From Armatimonadota bacterium (lineage in GTDB: Bacteria; Bacteroidota; Ignavibacteria; OLB7), in the NCBI GenBank assembly GCA_020850315.1, contig JADZEY010000135.1, forward strand, positions 1 through 37,986: a DNA stretch of 37,986 bases, written 5' to 3'. The number at the start of each line of letters is the position of its first letter. Within the stretch, counting starts at the first letter, position 1. This document shows, one piece after another, positions 3,283 through 37,986 of the stretch. The position numbers and the translations under genes are program-made. Below the pieces are notes generated by a model, which saw only the letters and a list, made by a program, of their open reading frames with translations, was not told where the DNA came from and made no database searches.

Positions 3283-4878
3283 CTATCCCATCCGCACGAC
3301 TTTCACGGTTTGAACCACTGGCAGATTGCGGAGCGCGTCCAGTGCCTCGGGGGATATGTCGCCATCAATTCGGATAACGGTTAAGGCATCGCCGGAATCT
3401 TGACACCGCCCCAACGATACGTCGCTGATGTTGATGTTTTGCTGGGCCAGCACGCCCCCCATTGCTGCCAGCACGCCAGGGCGGTCGGCACCGCGAAGCA
3501 ACAACAGCACGCCGGAAAGAGCCACATCTAACCACAGGTTATCAAACATCACCAAGCGGACATCGTCGCGGCCAAACAAGGTTACGGCTGCGTGGTGCGA
3601 TTGGCTGCCGTGCTGCTGGCTGGCGACCACTTCGGCAGCAATCAGCGTTTGGTAGCGGGGGTGTTCCCCTTCCCCAACCGCTTCCACGGTAATGCCAGCC
3701 GACGCAGCAATCCGTGCGGCGTTAATCTCATTCACCGCTCCGTTTTGGCGTTGGCACAGCACCCCGGCCAGCAGTGCGGCCTCTAAGCCTTGCATGATTT
3801 GGGTGGCATCTGGGCCGTGGGCAATCAAGTTGAAGTGGTTAGCATTGGGGCCGCCAAGTTGGGCAAGCAGATTGCCAAGCAACCGCGTGGCGCGCATCAT
3901 TGGGCGGGCGGCACTCATCAGGCAATCTTCCATTCCGTGGGCATTGACCACGCCACGCGCACCGCGCCCTTCAAAAAATTCTGACATCTGCACGGCGATA
4001 TCCACCGCAACGCGCTCCTGGGCTTCGTGGGTGCTGGCGGCAATGTGGGGCGTGGCCACCACGTTCGGATGCTCCATCAGTGCCACCGGAAACGTTGGCG
4101 GTTCGCTGCTGAAAACATCTAACGCTGCGCCGGCAATCTGGCCGCTGTTCAGTGCTTCCAGCAAGGCGGCTTCATCAACAATTCCGCCGCGGGCGCAGTT
4201 GATGATGAACGCTCCGTGTGGCATCCGTGCCAGTTCAGCAGTGCCAATCAGCCCACGGGTGGAGGCCATCAGGGGGATGTGGATGGTGATAATCTGGCAC
4301 GACTCCACCATCTCCTCGAAGGTGGTTGACTCAATCCCCAGCGCACGAATGGCTTCGGGGGAAAGGACCGGGTCGTAGCCAACAATCTGCGCCTGAAACG
4401 AAGCGATTCGGGCAGCGACTTCGCGCCCTATTCGCCCCAACCCCAACACACCAACCCGTTTGCCGAACAGTTCGGTTCCCACAAACGTTTTCCGATCCCA
4501 CTGCCCCTGGCGGATGCTGGCGTTGGCGGCAGGGATTTTCCGCAGCAAGGCCATCAGCATGGCAAGGGTGTGTTCGGCGGCGGAGATGGTGTTTCCCCCT
4601 GGGGTGTTCATCACCAGGATTCCCCGCTCGGTTGCGGCAACAACATCAATGTTATCAACGCCAGCACCGGCGCGACCAATGGCCAACATCCGTGGCATCG
4701 CCTCAATCATTTCCCGGTCAACCATCACCGCGCTCCGGACAATCAGCCCTTCGTAGTCGGGAAGCATTGCTATCAGCTCCTGGCGGGAAATTCCACCAGC
4801 CCGAACGGTTTCGATTCCGTGCGTGTTCAGCACCGCATCGCATTGGCGGCTGACGTTATCGGCAAGTAGCACCCGCAT
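3283..4878 (-). CDS. serA: D-3-phosphoglycerate dehydrogenase
   Basis: SerA oxidises 3-phosphoglycerate to 3-phosphohydroxypyruvate with NAD, the first step of serine synthesis. At 531 residues it is the long form: catalytic and Rossmann domains (motif GLGRIG at 146-151), an intervening domain, and a C-terminal ACT domain from about 460 that usually senses serine. The catalytic triad of the D-2-hydroxyacid dehydrogenase family is visible as R230 (NCARGG), E259 (SSEP) and H278 (TPHIA). The gene begins 3 bp after the class V aminotransferase stop codon, so translational coupling and a common serine pathway are likely. Feedback inhibition through the ACT domain is family knowledge. Confidence 0.96.
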   Translation of the reverse strand: MRVLLADNVSRQCDAVLNTHGIETVRAGGISRQELIAMLPDYEGLIVRSAVMVDREMIEAMPRMLAIGRAGAGVDNIDVVAATERGILVMNTPGGNTISAAEHTLAMLMALLRKIPAANASIRQGQWDRKTFVGTELFGKRVGVLGLGRIGREVAARIASFQAQIVGYDPVLSPEAIRALGIESTTFEEMVESCQIITIHIPLMASTRGLIGTAELARMPHGAFIINCARGGIVDEAALLEALNSGQIAGAALDVFSSEPPTFPVALMEHPNVVATPHIAASTHEAQERVAVDIAVQMSEFFEGRGARGVVNAHGMEDCLMSAARPMMRATRLLGNLLAQLGGPNANHFNLIAHGPDATQIMQGLEAALLAGVLCQRQNGAVNEINAARIAASAGITVEAVGEGEHPRYQTLIAAEVVASQQHGSQSHHAAVTLFGRDDVRLVMFDNLWLDVALSGVLLLLRGADRPGVLAAMGGVLAQQNINISDVSLGRCQDSGDALTVIRIDGDISPEALDALRNLPVVQTVKVVRMG

Positions 4879-4881
4879 CGG

Positions 4882-6039
4882 TTATGCCCCCCCTTGCCGC
4901 TGCCGTGCGGCTTGGTTAAACACCCCTTGTGCCGCAGCCAAACCCGCCCCTTCTGGATGCTGATGCCCGATGTCACTTAAGGCACTCTCGATTGCGAACA
5001 GGATACTCAGCATATCAGCTTCGTCGTAGTATCCCAGATGAGAGACACGGAAAATTTTCCCTTTCAAGCTCTCCTGTCCGGCAGCCACCGTCACACGGTA
5101 TTGTTCTTTCAGCAGCTTCATAAACGCACCTCCATGTTCAGGGAGGGTGATGGAGGTGACGGCATTGGAGGAGGGGGAAGCGAACAACCGCAATCCCAAT
5201 GCCAGCGCGCCAGCACGCAATGCTGCGGCCAACCGGCCATGCCGCGCCCAAACGTTTTCAACCCCCTCGTGACGGATCATCTGAAGTGCTTCGTCCAGCC
5301 CAAGCATCAAGGTGATTGCCGGGGTCCAGGGGGTGTCGTCGGCTTTCAGCGAATCGCGTGCTTCGGCAAGGTTGAAGTAAAATTTTGGAAGAGTGGAGGT
5401 TTGGTTGAACTCCCAAGCGCGTTGGCTTAGGGCAATAAACGCAAGGCCTGGGGGGATCATCAGCCCTTTTTGCGAGCCAGTGACAACAACATCAATATCC
5501 CAATCATCGAACCGCATTTCGTGGGCACCAACGGCGGTGATTCCATCAACCATCACAAGCCCTGGGTATCCCTGCTGGCGGAGCGCGGCGGTGATTGCTT
5601 GAACATCGGTGAAGACCCCGGTGGAGGTCTCGCTGTGGGTTAGGCAGACGGCGCGAGTTGCCGGATGCTGCGCCAGCATTTCCAGGATCTGCTGCGGGGT
5701 TGCGGCGGTTCCCCACGGAACGGCAAGTTGGTGGGGGGTTAGGCCGTAGGCCTGTGCTATTTCCCCCCAACGTTCGCCAAACTTCCCGCCGTTTACGAAC
5801 ACCAGTTCATCCCCCGCCGACAGGGTGTTGACGATTGCAGCCTCCATTGCCCCGGTTCCGCTGCTGGTAAGGGTTAGCACTGGCTGGGCGGTGCAGAACA
5901 GGTACTTCAGGTTATCGCTAACGCGGCGGATAACGTCACGGAACTCATCGGTTCGGTGATGGATAATCGGCTGCGCCATCCGCAGCATCACGGGTTCGGG
6001 CACGGGCGTTGGGCCGGGCGTAAACAGTCGGGTTTTCAT
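4882..6039 (-). CDS. Class V aminotransferase, probable phosphoserine aminotransferase
   Basis: This 385-residue PLP enzyme belongs to the alanine-glyoxylate/serine-pyruvate aminotransferase family. The N-terminal LFTPGPTPVPE motif, the glycine-rich SSGTGAMEA at 59-67, the cofactor-binding D165 (VMVDGITAVG) and the Schiff-base K191 (TGSQKG) are all present. Members of this branch use serine, alanine, glyoxylate or 3-phosphohydroxypyruvate. The 3 bp spacing to serA argues that here it makes O-phosphoserine, as proposed for serA-linked members in several phyla; that assignment is inference. A glyoxylate aminotransferase is the alternative. The last 20 or so residues are Ala/Gln-rich and not conserved. 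Confidence 0.85.
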   Translation of the reverse strand: MKTRLFTPGPTPVPEPVMLRMAQPIIHHRTDEFRDVIRRVSDNLKYLFCTAQPVLTLTSSGTGAMEAAIVNTLSAGDELVFVNGGKFGERWGEIAQAYGLTPHQLAVPWGTAATPQQILEMLAQHPATRAVCLTHSETSTGVFTDVQAITAALRQQGYPGLVMVDGITAVGAHEMRFDDWDIDVVVTGSQKGLMIPPGLAFIALSQRAWEFNQTSTLPKFYFNLAEARDSLKADDTPWTPAITLMLGLDEALQMIRHEGVENVWARHGRLAAALRAGALALGLRLFASPSSNAVTSITLPEHGGAFMKLLKEQYRVTVAAGQESLKGKIFRVSHLGYYDEADMLSILFAIESALSDIGHQHPEGAGLAAAQGVFNQAARQRQGGA

Positions 6040-6142
6040 GGATGTCTAATCCGGTGGTTTATCTGGTTATGCAGCAAACAGTCGTTGATGCTTTCTCCTC
6101 ACCCCCCCTCGCTCTTTCCCTTCAGACTCCCATTCTTTCGGC

Positions 6143-6748
6143 TCAAACCTCCCCTTTCCCTTTCAGCCAAAGCTCCAGCGTGGCAAGCAAGGCCGGAAGA
6201 TTATGCTTTGTTTGGCTAGAAAAGGGGATAATATCCACGCAGAAGCGGAAATCAGCAAGCAAGGTTTTCACCTCTTGGCGGCGAAGTTCGGCTTGTGCTG
6301 CGGAGACTTTATCGTGCTTGGTTAAGACCACCACAAAAGGGCGGCTGATAGATTCCAGATACTGGAACAGCTCGCGATCCAGCGCGGTTGGCTCGTGGCG
6401 GATATCCACCAGCGAAGCTATCAGCCGAAGCTGTTGGCGGCTGCGGACGTAGGTATCAATCAGCTTTCCCCACTCCTCCCGTTCGGTTTTGGCAACTTTT
6501 GCGTAGCCATATCCCGGAAGATCCACAAAGTGGAAGCGGGCGTTGACGCGGAAGAAATTGATCTGGCGAGTTTTCCCAGGGGTTGCGCTGACTTTTGCCA
6601 GCTTGCTTCGCCCCGTTAGCGTGTTGAGCAGCGAGGATTTCCCAACGTTCGAGCGGCCAGCAAACGCAACTTCGGCAAAGCTGGTGTTGGGAAATTGGCT
6701 GGGGGCAGCCGCGCCGATAATAAACTCGGATGTAGTAATGCGAAGCAT
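6143..6748 (-). CDS. engB: Ribosome biogenesis GTP-binding protein EngB/YsxC
   Basis: EngB (YihA/YsxC) is an essential small GTPase acting late in 50S subunit assembly. The 201-residue protein has the full motif set: G1 GRSNVGKS at 31-38, the characteristic G2 TPGKTRQ at 56-62, G3 DLPGYG at 76-81 and G4 TKHD at 143-146. The length is normal for the family. It lies between the RRM protein gene upstream and the serine genes downstream, with 103 bp to the aminotransferase start, and is probably transcribed from its own promoter after the hairpin at 6770-6796. Confidence 0.96.
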   Translation of the reverse strand: MLRITTSEFIIGAAAPSQFPNTSFAEVAFAGRSNVGKSSLLNTLTGRSKLAKVSATPGKTRQINFFRVNARFHFVDLPGYGYAKVAKTEREEWGKLIDTYVRSRQQLRLIASLVDIRHEPTALDRELFQYLESISRPFVVVLTKHDKVSAAQAELRRQEVKTLLADFRFCVDIIPFSSQTKHNLPALLATLELWLKGKGEV

Positions 6749-6769
6749 TCAATAAGCCTGTGAACAAAC

Positions 6770-6796
6770 GCTGCCGCGCCACAGCAACGCGGCAGC
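6770..6796 (-). terminator. Probable terminator of the RRM protein gene
   Basis: GCTGCCGCG (6770-6778) pairs perfectly with CGCGGCAGC (6788-6796) around a 9-base loop. On the minus strand the stem is followed by GTTTGTTC. It lies about 75 bases past the stop of the RRM protein gene and 22 bases before the engB start. Confidence 0.6.
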
Positions 6797-6870
6797 ATAA
6801 CAATGACTCCAAAGAAAGTGGTAGCTATGAGTTTGGAGAGAAAGGCCAAGCCGCAAGGGGTTGGTTTTAG

Positions 6871-7359
6871 CTACTCGTCGTCGTCGCCCCAGCCACCGCG
6901 TCGGCTATCGGAGCGGTCGTAGCGGTCGCCGCCGCTGTTGCCGCGTCCACCACGGTCGTTGCGGTCACGGCCACGGCTGCGGTCGCCACCACGCCCGCCA
7001 TCCCCGCCGCCATAACCTCCTCCACCTCGGTTGCCGTCGCGATTACCATCACGGTTGCCATCGCCTCTTGATTCTCCCCATCCACCACGGTATCCACCGC
7101 CAGAGCGTGGGCGTTCCTCGCGTGGACGGGCTTCATTGACGGTTAGTGCGCGGCCGCGCCATTCCTTGCCGTTCATTTCTTGGATTGCGTGCTGGCCATC
7201 CTCATCCTGCTCCATTTCAATAAATCCGAACCCGCGCGAACGCCCGGTTTCGCGATCCATCACAATGCTTGCCGATGTTACTGGGCCGTACTGTTCAAAT
7301 GCTTCGCGAAGTTCCTGATCGGTAACTGCAAACGCGAGGTTTCCAACATAGATGTTCAT
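6871..7359 (-). CDS. RRM-domain RNA-binding protein with Gly/Arg-rich tail
   Basis: The 162-residue protein has one RNA recognition motif, with RNP2 IYVGNL at residues 3-8 and RNP1 RGFGFIEM at 42-49. A tail from about residue 83 is rich in Gly, Arg and Asp, with RGG/RGD/GNRDGN repeats, ending WGDDDE. This is the architecture of bacterial cold-inducible RNA-binding proteins (Rbp of cyanobacteria and relatives), which bind single-stranded RNA. The frame stays open upstream to 7833, but that part overlaps rplQ; the ATG at 7359 directly precedes the RRM and is chosen as start. It is transcribed after the terminator-like hairpin following rplQ, so it is probably a separate unit. Cold or stress induction is family knowledge, not shown here. 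Confidence 0.9.
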   Translation of the reverse strand: MNIYVGNLAFAVTDQELREAFEQYGPVTSASIVMDRETGRSRGFGFIEMEQDEDGQHAIQEMNGKEWRGRALTVNEARPREERPRSGGGYRGGWGESRGDGNRDGNRDGNRGGGGYGGGDGGRGGDRSRGRDRNDRGGRGNSGGDRYDRSDSRRGGWGDDDE

Positions 7360-7615
7360 TCTGCCAAGGGAGTATGAAAGTTGATTGAGGAGAAATTTGC
7401 TGGGCTGACTGGTCTTATCACAAAGTAGTCTGGTAACACTGCGAAGCAGCTGAGCGAACAGCAGAACACACGAACACGACCACCAATGATTTAAGCGAAG
7501 CCTGCAAACGACCAAGCCTTCCATACGGTAGCGTAGGAAGGCTTGGCGGCAAAAATTGGAATGTTTTACAACTTGGCCAAGCAGTTTTTTTGCAAAGCCA
7601 TCTTCTTGTTCTGAA
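7360..7615. other. Intergenic region between rplQ and the RRM gene
   Basis: This 256-base stretch holds the hairpin at 7512-7546 and presumably the promoter and 5' leader of the RRM protein gene. Long leaders are known for cold-shock-type mRNAs, but no conserved element was recognised. No convincing gene was seen. Confidence 0.4.
7512..7546 (-). terminator. Hairpin after rplQ, probable end of the ribosomal cluster
   Basis: CCAAGCCTTCC (7512-7522) pairs perfectly with GGAAGGCTTGG (7536-7546). An inner TACG/CGTA extends the stem after a one-base bulge, leaving a GTAG tetraloop. On the minus strand it is followed by TCGTTTGC, a weak T-tract. It lies about 70 bases beyond the rplQ stop. Confidence 0.6.
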
Positions 7616-8272
7616 TTATCCCTTTGCCTGATCGCCATCGGCTGCGGTTTCGGCAGCTGGAGCTTCAGTAGTGGGCTGTTCTTCGGTGGCAGCGTCGGCA
7701 ACCGGTGCTGTTTCTGCGGCAGTTGTCTCAATAACTGCTTCTTCAGCCGGAGCTTCTTCTTGCGCCACTGCTGGCGTTTGCTTGGCTTCCAGTTCGGCTT
7801 GCTTTGCACGGCTGCGGGCAACGCGTTCAGCACGCGACATCATCCGTTTTGCACGGCTGCGGACGGCGTTCTCGTCACGTTCGGTGTTGTAGTCCACCAA
7901 TTCAAGGATTGCAACGCGGGCCCCATCGCCAATGCGTTGGCCAAGCTTCACCACGCGGGTGTAGCCGCCGGGCCGACCAGCAACTTTCTGGGCAATCTCG
8001 CTGAACAGCTCTTTCAAAATGGCGGCATCGTTGATGTCGCGGGCAACCACACGGCGGGCGTGGATGTTGGTTGCGCTGCCAGCTTGCTCGGCCAAATAAG
8101 CGTTCTTGGCACGTGTGATGATTGCTTCGGCAAAGCGGCGGGCTTCCTTGGCTTTAGCCTCGGTAGTCCGGATCCGTTTGTGACGCAGCAGCGACACCGT
8201 CAGCGCACGCAACAACGCACGGCGGTGGCTTGCTGTCCGCTTTAGTTTTCTGCCTTCTACGTTATGTCTCAT
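7616..8272 (-). CDS. rplQ: 50S ribosomal protein L17 with long C-terminal extension
   Basis: L17 is an early-assembling protein near the peptide exit tunnel. The core (residues 1-128, beginning MRHNVEGRKL and ending near ILELVDY) is typical. The protein runs to 218 residues, against about 115-130 in most bacteria: residues 135-165 are a basic helix rich in Arg and Lys, and about 166-218 are Ala/Glu/Thr/Pro-rich and acidic, probably disordered. Extended L17 forms are known in the Bacteroidota. It is the last gene of the alpha part of the cluster and follows rpoA by 63 bp. Confidence 0.96.
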   Translation of the reverse strand: MRHNVEGRKLKRTASHRRALLRALTVSLLRHKRIRTTEAKAKEARRFAEAIITRAKNAYLAEQAGSATNIHARRVVARDINDAAILKELFSEIAQKVAGRPGGYTRVVKLGQRIGDGARVAILELVDYNTERDENAVRSRAKRMMSRAERVARSRAKQAELEAKQTPAVAQEEAPAEEAVIETTAAETAPVADAATEEQPTTEAPAAETAADGDQAKG

Positions 8273-8335
8273 GGGTATGCTCTGGAAAAAAAATGCGTTT
8301 GCTGTCCGCAGTTGTATGCAGCGCAGTTGCGTGGG

Positions 8336-9343
8336 CTATTTACTCTCTTTGTCTTCTTTCAGGTAGCGGTCAATATCCATTCCGAAGACTAGGCCGAACT
8401 CCTGAATGATCTCTGTCAATTCTGCCAGAGACTTGCGCCCAAAGTTGCGGAACTTTAGCATCTCACTCTCTTGCCGACCCACAAGGTCGGCAATGGTGTT
8501 GATGTTGGCGGCCTTCAGACAATTATGGGAGCGAACTGATAATTCCAATTCATCCACTGTTGTCAGAAGGATTCGGCGAATCCGGCTGATCTCGGCTTCT
8601 TTGGACTCTTCTTCTTCGGCAATCTGTGCTTCTTGGGCATCAAAATTCAAGAAGAGTTGGATATGGTCGCGCAAGATTTTTGCAGCGGTCGCCAACGATT
8701 CTTCTGGCGAGATAGAGCCGTCGGTAGTGATTTCGAGCGTGAGTTTTTCGTAGTCAGTTTTTTGGCCGACGCGGGTTGGCTCAACGGTATATCGAACGTT
8801 CAATACCGGCGTGAAGATGGAGTCAATCGGGATCATCCCGACTGGCATATCGGGTTGGCGATTTTCTTCGCTTGGGACGTAGCCTTTGCCACGCCCAATC
8901 CGAAGCTCCACGCTCATGGTTACGCCACTGCTAAGCGTAGCGATGCGGTGTTCGGGGTTCAGCACCTCGAAGGCATCGGTAGCGGCTTGGATATTGGCTC
9001 CGGTAAAATCGCCAGCACCGCGAACGTCGAAGGCGATTTTGTTGGTCTTTTTGTCAATCTGCTTCAGCCGAATTTCCTTCAGGTTCAGGATGATTTCGGC
9101 CATATCCTCGGTGACACCGGTGATGGTCTGGAACTCATGAAGCACGCCATCAATTTTAATGGCAGCAATGGCGCATCCGGGGATGGAAGCTAACAACACC
9201 CGGCGGAATGCGTTCCCAATCGTGGTTCCGTATCCTTCTTCCAGTGGTTGCAGAACGAACCGTCCGAACGTCTCGCTCCGTGTAGCTTCATCAAGCTGAA
9301 CCCGTTCGGGCATCTGCATCAGCGCACTGATTGGCGCAGTCAT
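8336..9343 (-). CDS. rpoA: DNA-directed RNA polymerase subunit alpha
   Basis: RpoA nucleates core RNA polymerase assembly. The N-terminal dimerisation domain is recognisable from EGYGTTIGNAFRRVLL, and the C-terminal domain from LELSVRSHNCLKAANI onward, including RNFGRKSLAEL of the helix-hairpin-helix that contacts UP elements and activators. The ATG at 9343 is preferred; a TTG four codons upstream (9355) is also in frame. The length is normal (335 residues). It lies 178 bp after rpsD, a gap holding an inverted repeat. Confidence 0.97.
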   Translation of the reverse strand: MTAPISALMQMPERVQLDEATRSETFGRFVLQPLEEGYGTTIGNAFRRVLLASIPGCAIAAIKIDGVLHEFQTITGVTEDMAEIILNLKEIRLKQIDKKTNKIAFDVRGAGDFTGANIQAATDAFEVLNPEHRIATLSSGVTMSVELRIGRGKGYVPSEENRQPDMPVGMIPIDSIFTPVLNVRYTVEPTRVGQKTDYEKLTLEITTDGSISPEESLATAAKILRDHIQLFLNFDAQEAQIAEEEESKEAEISRIRRILLTTVDELELSVRSHNCLKAANINTIADLVGRQESEMLKFRNFGRKSLAELTEIIQEFGLVFGMDIDRYLKEDKESK

Positions 9344-35310: not shown

Positions 35311-36729
35311 TTACCCCCCGGTTCCCATGTATCCCCGCAGCGTCAAGAAAAGCAACAGGAAAAATAGGCCATACACCATCCAACGGATTGCCCCGTGCCC
35401 AGCCCCTGCCGAAGCCGGGCGATCGGCCACCGGAAGCAATGCCAGAAACAGCACCGCCGCAACGATGAACGCCATTGCCACCGAAGCCGAACACCACTCC
35501 AACAACTGGTACAATCCCAGCAGATACCACTCGGGCCGAAGCTGAGTAGCAGCCAGCTGAGCTTGCGTTAGATCCACCGGGAAGCCCCCTTCGCCACGAC
35601 CCCACGGGGCGGCAATCGCCAGCGTTAGCAACGCCCCGGACACCAGCAACCAACAAACAAGCTGGCGATAGAGTCCACCGGAAGAATCCCCCGAAACCGC
35701 TGCACCGCCAGCAAGCCGATTCAGCAGCTGCGCCGAACAAACCGGAAGCAACAGCAACGGAAGCAGAAAAAATGGAGATGCAGGATTGAACGAAGCAGCA
35801 ACAAACGGATAGACCAACAACAGAAGAACGCAGCCAGCAACCAGCACCGCCGCAGCATTGAACGGTTTGGAAAAATCACCCACTGGCTTCCCAGACACCA
35901 CCCCCCGCCGCCACCAACTGACGTGGAGGATCAGCACCAGAATCAGCGCAATCGGCAACAGTGCTGTGTGGGCTGCGGCCATTCGCGATAGCGTTCCCCC
36001 GCCAACCTCCTTCCCGCCACGCATCGCTTGCGCCACCCAGTCGCCAACCAACGGAATCCCCTGCTCCGGCAACGACGATCCCACCCACGCAGCCGCATAT
36101 CCAAGCCGATCCCACGGAAGCACCGATCCGGTCCATGCAGATCCCAAAACCAACGCAAGCAACAGCAGTCCGCTAATCCACACCCCGCTGTTCGGTTTCC
36201 GCCAAGCCCCCTGCCACGCCAGCCCGCCGAACCAAATCAGCAGCGAAGCAACCAGCAGCTGCGCCCCCCAAGCATGAACCGAGCGAACCAACGCCCCGAA
36301 CTCCACCTGCCGCAGCACTTGGTGCTCCAAGCTAACCCATGCCGCCGATGGATGCACAGGGCGACCCGTTGCGGAATCGCGAAGCAGTTCAGCAACGCCA
36401 CGAAGCGGGGTTGGGAAATCGGCATTGCCGCCGCTGCTATCGGCCCGAACAGGAACAAGCTGGCCGGGGAGATACTCTACCCCAAGCCATGTTGTGGTAT
36501 CGGTGATGCGGGCAAGCAGCAGCGGGGTGCCATCGGAAGCCGATGCCGGCGCGGGGCTGGGCTGGTAGTGAAACAGCAGCAGAACCCCACTGAGCAACAT
36601 CACTCCAAAAAAGAAGAGAACCAGCCCGCCGAAATACCACAGCAGGCCATCAGTTGCGGGAACCACCCCCCGAAAAAACTGGCGGATAGGCTGCGGCGAA
36701 GGCGTATGCGATTGAGAAGAATCAATCAT
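35311..36729 (-). CDS. Divergent cytochrome b (b6-like) of a Rieske/cytochrome b complex
   Basis: This 472-residue membrane protein aligns without gaps to cytochrome b6 from H152 (RSVHAW) through helix D. Heme ligands: H152 in helix B, H254 and H269 in helix D (15 apart, the b6 spacing). The position of the second helix-B histidine, 14 residues after H152, is W166. The p-side heme pair (H152/H254) is thus intact, but the n-side heme lacks one ligand. The Qo motifs PWD (205-207) and PEWY (399-402) are conserved. Residues of about 61-129 form an insertion in the A-B loop. Two extra hydrophobic segments lie near 292-337 before the subunit-IV-like part, which is fused in the same chain. The gene follows the Rieske gene by 40 bp. 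No cytochrome c subunit is adjacent. Confidence 0.88.
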   Translation of the reverse strand: MIDSSQSHTPSPQPIRQFFRGVVPATDGLLWYFGGLVLFFFGVMLLSGVLLLFHYQPSPAPASASDGTPLLLARITDTTTWLGVEYLPGQLVPVRADSSGGNADFPTPLRGVAELLRDSATGRPVHPSAAWVSLEHQVLRQVEFGALVRSVHAWGAQLLVASLLIWFGGLAWQGAWRKPNSGVWISGLLLLALVLGSAWTGSVLPWDRLGYAAAWVGSSLPEQGIPLVGDWVAQAMRGGKEVGGGTLSRMAAAHTALLPIALILVLILHVSWWRRGVVSGKPVGDFSKPFNAAAVLVAGCVLLLLVYPFVAASFNPASPFFLLPLLLLPVCSAQLLNRLAGGAAVSGDSSGGLYRQLVCWLLVSGALLTLAIAAPWGRGEGGFPVDLTQAQLAATQLRPEWYLLGLYQLLEWCSASVAMAFIVAAVLFLALLPVADRPASAGAGHGAIRWMVYGLFFLLLFLTLRGYMGTGG

Positions 36730-36769: not shown

Positions 36770-37228
36770 CTATGCTGTTGGAGGTTCATCCGGAACTCCA
36801 TCAACCGGAGGTTCATCAATAACGACAACGTTTCCGCCAATCTCTTCAACGCGCAACCGTTGCAGCGGGCGGGGGGGCGGCCCAGCAATCACCCTCCCCT
36901 CGGCATCGAAGCGGCCACCGTGGCAGGCGCAGTGAAACTCCCGCGAGGCATCCACCCAATGGACAGGGCAACCGGTGTGGGTGCAACGCAGGCTAATGGC
37001 CCTGATCGTGCCATCGGGCATTGGCTGCACCACCGCATCGTTCAGCCCAACACGAACGAGAGTGGTTGGCTGGGAGCGAATTTTTTCGATTGAGCCAGCA
37101 ACGCATCGCGCAGGTTCAGTGACTGGCGGGCGCAAAAACCGGGCAGCAACGTACGCCACCGGAACGGCCACCGCCCCGGCCGCCCCCCACAGCAGCCGTG
37201 ATAGAGTACTTCGGCGAGAAGAGTTCAT
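36770..37228 (-). CDS. Rieske [2Fe-2S] protein, low-potential type
   Basis: The 152-residue protein has a Tat-type leader (SRRSTLSRLL) with an uncleaved-looking membrane anchor at about 12-30. The cluster ligands are C82, H84, C100 and H103, with the disulfide pair C87/C102. The prolines of GPPPRPL (116-122) are present. In CHGGRFD the Ser and Tyr of the bc1 motif CHGSxY are Gly105 and Phe107; their loss lowers cluster potential in characterised proteins and is seen with menaquinol. It is the electron acceptor from quinol in a complex with the cytochrome b encoded next. About 15 C-terminal residues are proline-rich and unconserved. Confidence 0.92.
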   Translation of the reverse strand: MNSSRRSTLSRLLWGAAGAVAVPVAYVAARFLRPPVTEPARCVAGSIEKIRSQPTTLVRVGLNDAVVQPMPDGTIRAISLRCTHTGCPVHWVDASREFHCACHGGRFDAEGRVIAGPPPRPLQRLRVEEIGGNVVVIDEPPVDGVPDEPPTA

Positions 37229-37295: not shown

Positions 37296-37986
37296 TCAGT
37301 ACCAAAGTAGCACCCACAACACACAAAGCGGATAAACCACCGTCAGGACGTAGCTAATTGGGCGGATGCTTACCCCTTGCAGCTGTTCCAGCCGGAACCG
37401 TGAGTTCACCACAATCACTGTGATAAAACTAACCAGCACCACCATAAACGTCACCCAAAACAGCAAATCGGCTTTTGTTAAATAATCACTGCTGGGGGTG
37501 ATGTTCGACAGGGCGATGGAGAAAGTGATAATCCCCAAGAATGTCCCTGCACTAACTTCACCAAGATTTTCGAACGAAATATCGGTGATATACAGCAGTG
37601 AAATTGCCACAAACCCGATAAGAATTAGCGGCAGCACAATCTGCAGAAATGGTCCCAGAAATTTCCGCTCAACCAACAGCCGGAAGGAGAAGTTTTTGAA
37701 CACCGTTGGCTTCCCTTCCCGATTATCGGGATCGCCACGCATGGTGGTGGCGATGCGATTATCTACCGTCACGTAATACTTCAGTTTATTCCATGCCTGG
37801 ACCTTAAATCGCTCAAAAATTTTCGTGTCCTCATCAAGGCTGCTTTGGTCGAAGGAGATTTTCAGCTTGTTGGAAGGTGCAAGTATCTCCACTTTTATCG
37901 CTATTTCTTGTTTATCCAAAGGGTACTCGGCCAAAGCGAAATCGTGGTGAAACGTCCCAGAAACCTTGTAGAGTTTATACTCAATA
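37296..37986 (-). CDS. Pentameric ligand-gated ion channel, C-terminal part (runs off window)
   Basis: The frame is open to the window edge with no start in the window; about 229 residues are visible. The pro-loop motif YPLDKQ corresponds to the Cys-loop (F/YPxDxQ) without cysteines, as in bacterial homologues such as GLIC. Four membrane segments follow: M1 (near LPLILIGFVAISLLY), M2 and M3 within GIITFSIALSN to VSFITVIVV, and M4 ending WVLLWY at the C-terminus. M2 aligns without gaps to GLIC as I recall it, keeping Glu at -2' and Leu at 9', with Glu replacing Thr at 2'. The rest of the ligand-binding domain lies outside the window. Cation selectivity is inferred. Confidence 0.85.
   Translation of the reverse strand, partial: IEYKLYKVSGTFHHDFALAEYPLDKQEIAIKVEILAPSNKLKISFDQSSLDEDTKIFERFKVQAWNKLKYYVTVDNRIATTMRGDPDNREGKPTVFKNFSFRLLVERKFLGPFLQIVLPLILIGFVAISLLYITDISFENLGEVSAGTFLGIITFSIALSNITPSSDYLTKADLLFWVTFMVVLVSFITVIVVNSRFRLEQLQGVSIRPISYVLTVVYPLCVLWVLLWY

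Follow-up and report, generated by a model that had tools for sequence, protein, structure and literature searches.

The Rieske/cytochrome b locus

The window, i.e., the whole stretch of 37,986 nucleotides that was analyzed, carries a cytochrome b gene exactly where a sequence-only reading of this DNA had placed it, at positions 35311-36729, on the minus strand (P0001, running from 36729 to 35311, 472 aa), while the plus strand of the same interval is broken by stops. P0001 matched the Pfam families PF00033 (102 bits), PF13631 (82 bits), and PF00032 (23 bits), the first of them over its curated cut-off (102.5 vs. 27.2 bits), and its closest solved structures are b6 chains. The partner gene upstream, recognized by Pfam and by its ligand motifs, encodes a Rieske [2Fe-2S] protein (P0002, 36770-37228, minus strand, read from 37228 to 36770) and ends 40 bases before the cytochrome b gene. 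In what follows, G000 denotes the genome of the window, G001 a congener, and G004 a member of a sister genus in the same family (f1).

Directly downstream of cytochrome b lies a gene for a metallo-beta-lactamase-fold protein (PF12706, 34148-35293, minus strand) with an RR-type N-terminus. In G004, a relative (63%) is found directly downstream of the pair. In G001, the relative (91%) lies about 4.5 kb off, separated from cytochrome b by a block of other genes of about that length that is absent in G000 (L033, about 4430-8980). This protein was considered as a functional partner and rejected, as it lies near the pair in f1 but not in the other families examined. No CXXCH protein was found among the longer ORFs of the window, which covers the entire contig (C135) to its edge and ends about 750 bases past the Rieske gene, and no electron acceptor genes are encoded near the pair. 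An ORF at the window edge (37296-37985, minus strand) without a Pfam match looks by eye like the membrane portion of Cys-loop ligand-gated channels.

A two-haem wire across the membrane is treated as a near-universal property of bc and b6f complexes and as the basis of the Q-cycle. In P0001, the four-histidine set for two bis-histidine b haems is incomplete, with W166 (codon TGG, 36232-36234; this and all following codons on the minus strand) replacing the n-side ligand of helix B. The sequence-only reading had pointed to this replacement, and both alignment and codon comparison bear it out: P0001 aligns with cytochrome b6 free of gaps from H152 past the KP motif, the b6 histidine falls on W166, and the ordinary relatives all retain four histidines (HHHH). 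Nor does helix B or C offer an alternative ligand, as there is no histidine, methionine, or cysteine between residues 153 and 235. The change from histidine (CAY) to tryptophan (TGG) requires three base changes, and the same TGG is found in G001 at 84% nucleotide identity.

The p-side set is present, comprising the haem ligands H152 (RSVH of helix B, 36274-36276) and H254 (helix D, 35968-35970), together with R149, G48, and G201, and so are the Qo motifs LPWD, after helix C (36109-36120), and PEWY (35524-35535). The earlier description of these ligands and motifs as intact holds, but the Qo region as a whole is altered, in that positions 199, 202, and 212 are unlike those of nearly all ordinary relatives (F199 to Trp, Y202 to Ser, and the aromatic residue 212 to Ala in G000 and G001; G004 is unshifted). 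On the n-side, both G000 and G001 retain the ligand H269 (35923-35925) and the glycines G34 of helix A (36628-36630) and G187 of helix C (36169-36171), whereas H166 and R180 are gone; N180, at the n-side start of helix C (36190-36192), stands where 35 out of 35 ordinary relatives and G004 have arginine. The glycines and the arginine were allotted to one haem or the other on the assumption that general knowledge of bc1/b6f structures applies here.

Two insertions set P0001 apart. The first, at about residues 57-127 (36349-36561), lengthens the connection from helix A to helix B by about 70 residues, presumably on the p-side according to standard topology, and is the hallmark of the clade described below. 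The second, at about residues 281-350 (35680-35889), is hydrophobic and separates helix D from helix E; it was recognized by eye in G001, G004, and G341 as well and is the fastest-evolving part of the protein. When compared with solved structures, the cytochrome b part alone was matched, and the A-B insertion matched nothing. A structure predicted from a two-sequence input (pLDDT 39.6, pTM 0.26) was discarded.

Distribution and phylogeny of long-loop cytochromes b

A profile of the A-B insertion was queried against 391 genomes of the window's class and retrieved matches, some full and some partial, from families f1, f6, f14, f15, f24, and f30, the weaker matches to the profile end alone being ordinary cytochromes b. 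Across a phylum-wide sample, the long loop was found in this class only. H152 and H254 are present in every long-loop cytochrome b. The n-side pair (positions 166/269) is H/H in G004 and W/H in G000 and G001, the two independent genomes with this state (n = 2). Elsewhere, the pair reads W/L, W/V, or A/I in f24, A/V or S/I in f6, Y/A in f30, and W/F, W/L, W/M, L/L, T/L, L/D, or V followed by a gap in f14. The other 23 long-loop sequences of our tree have neither n-side histidine and have lost most of the n-side glycines. W166 had been presented as a single-residue curiosity; the cross-genome search and helix-B alignment proposed at the same time place it instead as one state within a clade-wide change. 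Tryptophan is the commonest replacement at this position (12 of 25 deficient long-loop sequences) and may fill the vacated haem space.

The PWD and PEWY motifs decay in f14, f24, and f6. The shortest long-loop cytochromes b were those of f14 (ORFs of about 320-415 aa at L036, L083, L087, L088, L090, and L094), in which LPWD has become LPDD or LVDD and PEWY has become xWW. The same six loci retain both p-side histidines and an adjoining Rieske protein with all ligands.

Phylogenetic reconstruction was carried out with 26 long-loop sequences and 36 ordinary cytochromes b of the same class, all of which retain HHHH, and the four histidine columns and the insertion were excluded from the alignment. 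Sequences from G313 and G356 were omitted because contig ends cut them before or near the helix-D site. The long-loop cytochromes b form a single clade (100/99, recovered in 100% of bootstraps). When the tree is rooted between the two groups, G004 splits first, G000/G001 second, and the 23 others (99/96) last. This suggests that loss of the helix-B ligand preceded that of the helix-D ligand. Such a succession is not firm, since many branches are long and a clade of G000, G001, and G004 was not rejected (AU test, p = 0.10); a clade of these three with f30 was rejected (p = 0.005).

Site conservation followed the two sides of the membrane. Zero changes were mapped on the tree at H152, H254, R149, G48, and G201, as opposed to 9, 9, 11, 13, and 17 at positions 166, 269, 34, 187, and 180, respectively, and these counts depend little on the branching order of G004 versus G000/G001. 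We also examined 45 positions that are nearly invariant in 35 ordinary sequences (the outlier L030 was excluded). Among the 23 sequences without n-side histidines, the positions that we assign to the p-side haem region (G48, Y55, A130, G145, R149, H152, G201, and H254) are identical throughout, as is W401. None of the 23 retains H166 or H269 on the n-side, where G34 and R180 are kept by one each and G187 by seven.

The Rieske partner

The cluster-binding pattern CxHxxC...CxCH is complete in P0002. Box I, CTHTGC (36968-36985, minus strand), supplies the ligands C82 and H84 and the disulphide cysteine C87, with Thr in place of the ordinary Leu or Met, and box II, CACHGG (36914-36931, minus strand), supplies C100, H103, and the disulphide cysteine C102, with Gly at a position that is Ser in most ordinary partners. 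Rieske proteins complete in their four cluster ligands and two disulphide cysteines were identified in 19 n-side-deficient genomes: G000, G001, G341, G281, G239, G275, G347, G110, G009, G374, G019, G055, G063, G201, G076, and G344, as well as G327, G389, and G090, whose box I reads CTHARC and which were found by tblastn. An apparent loss of the Rieske protein in f14 was withdrawn after the same tblastn search, in which three partners proved to read CTHARC and another to be half masked. This last one belongs to a 20th genome (G368), where box I falls inside the masked stretch and box II can be read as intact. No Rieske-like sequence was detected in the short flanks of cytochrome b, the only regions searched, in G147, G155, G175, G362, G365, G313, and G356. 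The Rieske gene adjoins cytochrome b in f1, f30, and f14. In f24 and f6 it sits at another genomic location, so that the partnership of these unlinked genes is a presumed one.

In 17 long-loop genomes (16 deficient ones and G004), the Rieske proteins branch apart from the ordinary partners (92/95). Box I of the long-loop group, G004 included, carries Ala or Thr as opposed to the ordinary Leu or Met, and the position of the box II serine, conserved in most ordinary partners, is occupied by Gly, Ala, or Asn. The box I change seems to be older than the loss of the haem site, because G004, with its intact cytochrome b, has Ala/Thr after CTH too. In the yeast Rieske protein, mutation of the serine lowers the potential by 130 mV and mutation of a tyrosine by 65 mV (PMC12954380). 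At the position of that tyrosine, the long-loop proteins have Phe. With the serine replaced as well, their cluster is expected to be of low potential.

Respiratory background and selection

No second cytochrome b was detected by a PF00033 search in any of 15 n-side-deficient genomes. Fourteen of them, G000 included, encode exactly one, and the search returned none in G063, whose own long-loop gene falls below the threshold and was found by the insertion profile. G004, with the intact long-loop protein, has an extra b6-type cytochrome b as well. Haem-copper oxidases and one NrfD-family protein were identified in all 16 genomes searched for them (14 long-loop genomes plus G002 and G003, which belong to the same family as G000 and are without the long loop). 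Gene order was read in G000 alone, where the cluster runs from an ActB-like protein (Fer4) through NrfD (ActC), ActD (PF11821), and a monohaem cytochrome c to a protein of 433 aa that occupies the ActF place and matches no Pfam family, followed by the caa3 genes, i.e., an alternative complex III (ACIII) with its oxidase. The presence of ACIII in the remaining genomes is inferred from the NrfD match and from COX1, which mostly lies a few kb away on the same contig. Immediately before the ActB-like gene (L154, 1-5000, on G000:C108), no gene for the pentahaem ActA was seen upstream. Also in G000, a COX1-family ORF of 776 aa with a weak score (158 bits; G000:C91:44844-46187) possibly encodes a quinol-dependent nitric oxide reductase.

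We considered whether ACIII is specific to genomes with a defective cytochrome b. This was ruled out by the detection of NrfD proteins in 18 of 20 genomes with ordinary cytochrome b, in a search by which ActC and other members of the NrfD family are not told apart. ACIII would thus make the loss of the haem site tolerable, but it does not explain the loss.

Comparison of G000 with G001 yielded dN/dS values of 0.20 (NG86) and 0.25 (YN00) for cytochrome b, 0.12-0.13 for the Rieske protein, and, across seven ACIII/caa3 genes, 0.014-0.044. Fully deficient cytochromes b gave 0.18-0.31 in five pairs (a sixth was saturated), and ordinary pairs gave 0.05-0.12 with dS mostly saturated, which makes this contrast a rough one. 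The long-loop cytochrome b is under relaxed but real purifying selection, as far as these ratios go: it is kept by selection, less tightly than the main respiratory chain.

Putative function of the long-loop complexes

Taking together the ligand pattern, its phylogeny, the maintenance of the genes, and the Rieske ligands, we consider it fairly probable that the pair forms a Rieske/cytochrome b complex that works on the p-side only and has no Q-cycle, and that may be devoted to linear quinol oxidation or to sensing. Such a complex would hold one bis-histidine b haem, on the p-side, with the n-side haem site of P0001 partly dismantled. With a single p-side haem and no cross-membrane wire, electrons would be unable to reach the n-side quinone site, and there would be no Q-cycle. 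Electrons would leave menaquinol singly at the p-side site, the first passing to the Rieske cluster and the second being parked on the p-side haem, from which it might later reach the Rieske cluster again or a p-side acceptor. The outcome would be a slow, non-bifurcating linear oxidation that forms a side branch or senses redox poise, with the main electron flow passing through ACIII and the caa3 oxidase.

The earlier wording on bifurcation, which was said to need the n-side haem, was loose, in that the first split at the Qo site uses the p-side haem, which the n-side haem then drains for turnover. The companion claim, that the n-side haem is lost or bound abnormally and a full Q-cycle therefore does not run, finds good support in sequence comparisons, with the proviso that in P0001 a mono-histidine haem is conceivable. 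More tentatively, and at somewhat less than even confidence, we propose that the clade consists of functional complexes obligately equipped with a single p-side b haem, active in non-bifurcating oxidation or in sensing of the quinone pool, with a one-histidine intermediate preserved in the window's genus.

It is less likely, but still deserving of attention, that the pair has ceased to act as a quinol oxidase and is either decaying or non-catalytic, retained for a role in structure, assembly, or sensing. Its dN/dS values (0.20 for cytochrome b and 0.12 for the Rieske protein) are several times those of the ACIII/caa3 genes and, within the limits set by saturation, above those of ordinary cytochrome b pairs. 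The Qo motifs decay in f14 and f24, and the decay in these two families and in f6 argues against efficient quinol oxidation there. Structural retention has likewise been proposed for the 'deranged' bc1 of Acidiphilium and Acidocella, members of the acidophilic Acetobacteraceae (PMC10715153). These Acetobacteraceae, however, also lose the Rieske ligands, unlike the long-loop clade, in which the ligands are retained and the p-side haem residues are invariant in 25 of 25 deeply diverged deficient sequences, neither of which a purely structural role would need.

We regard as unlikely a further alternative, confined to G000 and G001, in which H269 alone holds a five-coordinate, high-spin n-side haem of altered potential that transfers electrons slowly or to an unusual n-side reaction. 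Retention of H269, G34, and G187 is what keeps such a haem in play for P0001, and the n-side half of the protein is not evolving faster than the p-side half within the genus (dN/dS 0.09 vs. 0.20). A bc1 mutant of R. capsulatus in a bL ligand, H198N, does retain a high-spin haem, yet it is without enzymatic activity (PMC8138165). Moreover, a bulky tryptophan occupies the place of the missing ligand, R180, invariant in ordinary relatives, has become Asn, and H269 has gone in the other lineages too. For the other 23 long-loop sequences, a mono-histidine n-side haem appears implausible. A sequencing or assembly error at W166, a pseudogene, or a misalignment has a negligible chance of being the explanation even though both genomes of the genus are fragmented drafts of about 140 contigs each: the three base changes and the shared TGG codon rule out the error that the sequence-only reading had named as its refutation, and the full-length open frames, purifying selection, and ungapped alignment refute the rest.

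Comparison with known systems

ACIII also oxidises quinol in the same genome, but its subunits ActB-ActF are unrelated and non-homologous to the pair. The nearest relatives are the cytochrome b6 and menaquinol Rieske-cytochrome b complexes (PF00033/PF13631 with PF00355), with which the pair shares helices A-D, the p-side histidine pair, LPWD, PEWY, a 15-residue spacing of the helix-D histidines, and an adjoining Rieske gene. In contrast to these complexes, P0001 is one n-side ligand short and has the insertion of about 70 residues between helices A and B and an additional one between D and E. P0002 reads CTHTGC instead of CTHLGC in box I, and no cytochrome c gene was seen adjoining the pair within the window. 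Annotation as 'cytochrome b present' need not equate to a complex III with a Q-cycle, a caution for energy models built from genomes.

Loss of the bH histidines is shared with the 'deranged' bc1 complexes, in which the Rieske protein is absent or without cluster ligands (PMC10715153). Here the loss is partial in G000/G001 and complete in 23 relatives. The long-loop group differs in retaining the Rieske ligands wherever these are readable, in belonging to another bacterial group with another architecture, and in its ACIII-caa3 background, as opposed to bo3 and iron oxidation.

A chloroplast b6 mutant without a bH ligand, reportedly first studied by Malnoe et al. in 2011, provides the other point of comparison. 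According to a later paper, this mutant partly sustains electron flow (cited in PMC10715153). The mutant is like P0001 in that an n-side ligand is removed and the Rieske protein and p-side haem are kept, but it is a laboratory construct and not a fixed natural state, and b6f also carries haem ci. The long-loop group would be a natural counterpart of such bH knockouts, one that would allow a direct test of whether the complex can be useful without a Q-cycle, and the clade may preserve an order of loss from the helix-B ligand to the helix-D ligand and glycines and on to the Qo motifs. No description of the group was found in a literature search that covered mostly sources other than subscription journals. 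Thus, loss of the bH histidines is already known from Acetobacteraceae, and what appears to be new is its combination with retained Rieske ligands, the insertion, and the graded pattern across the clade.
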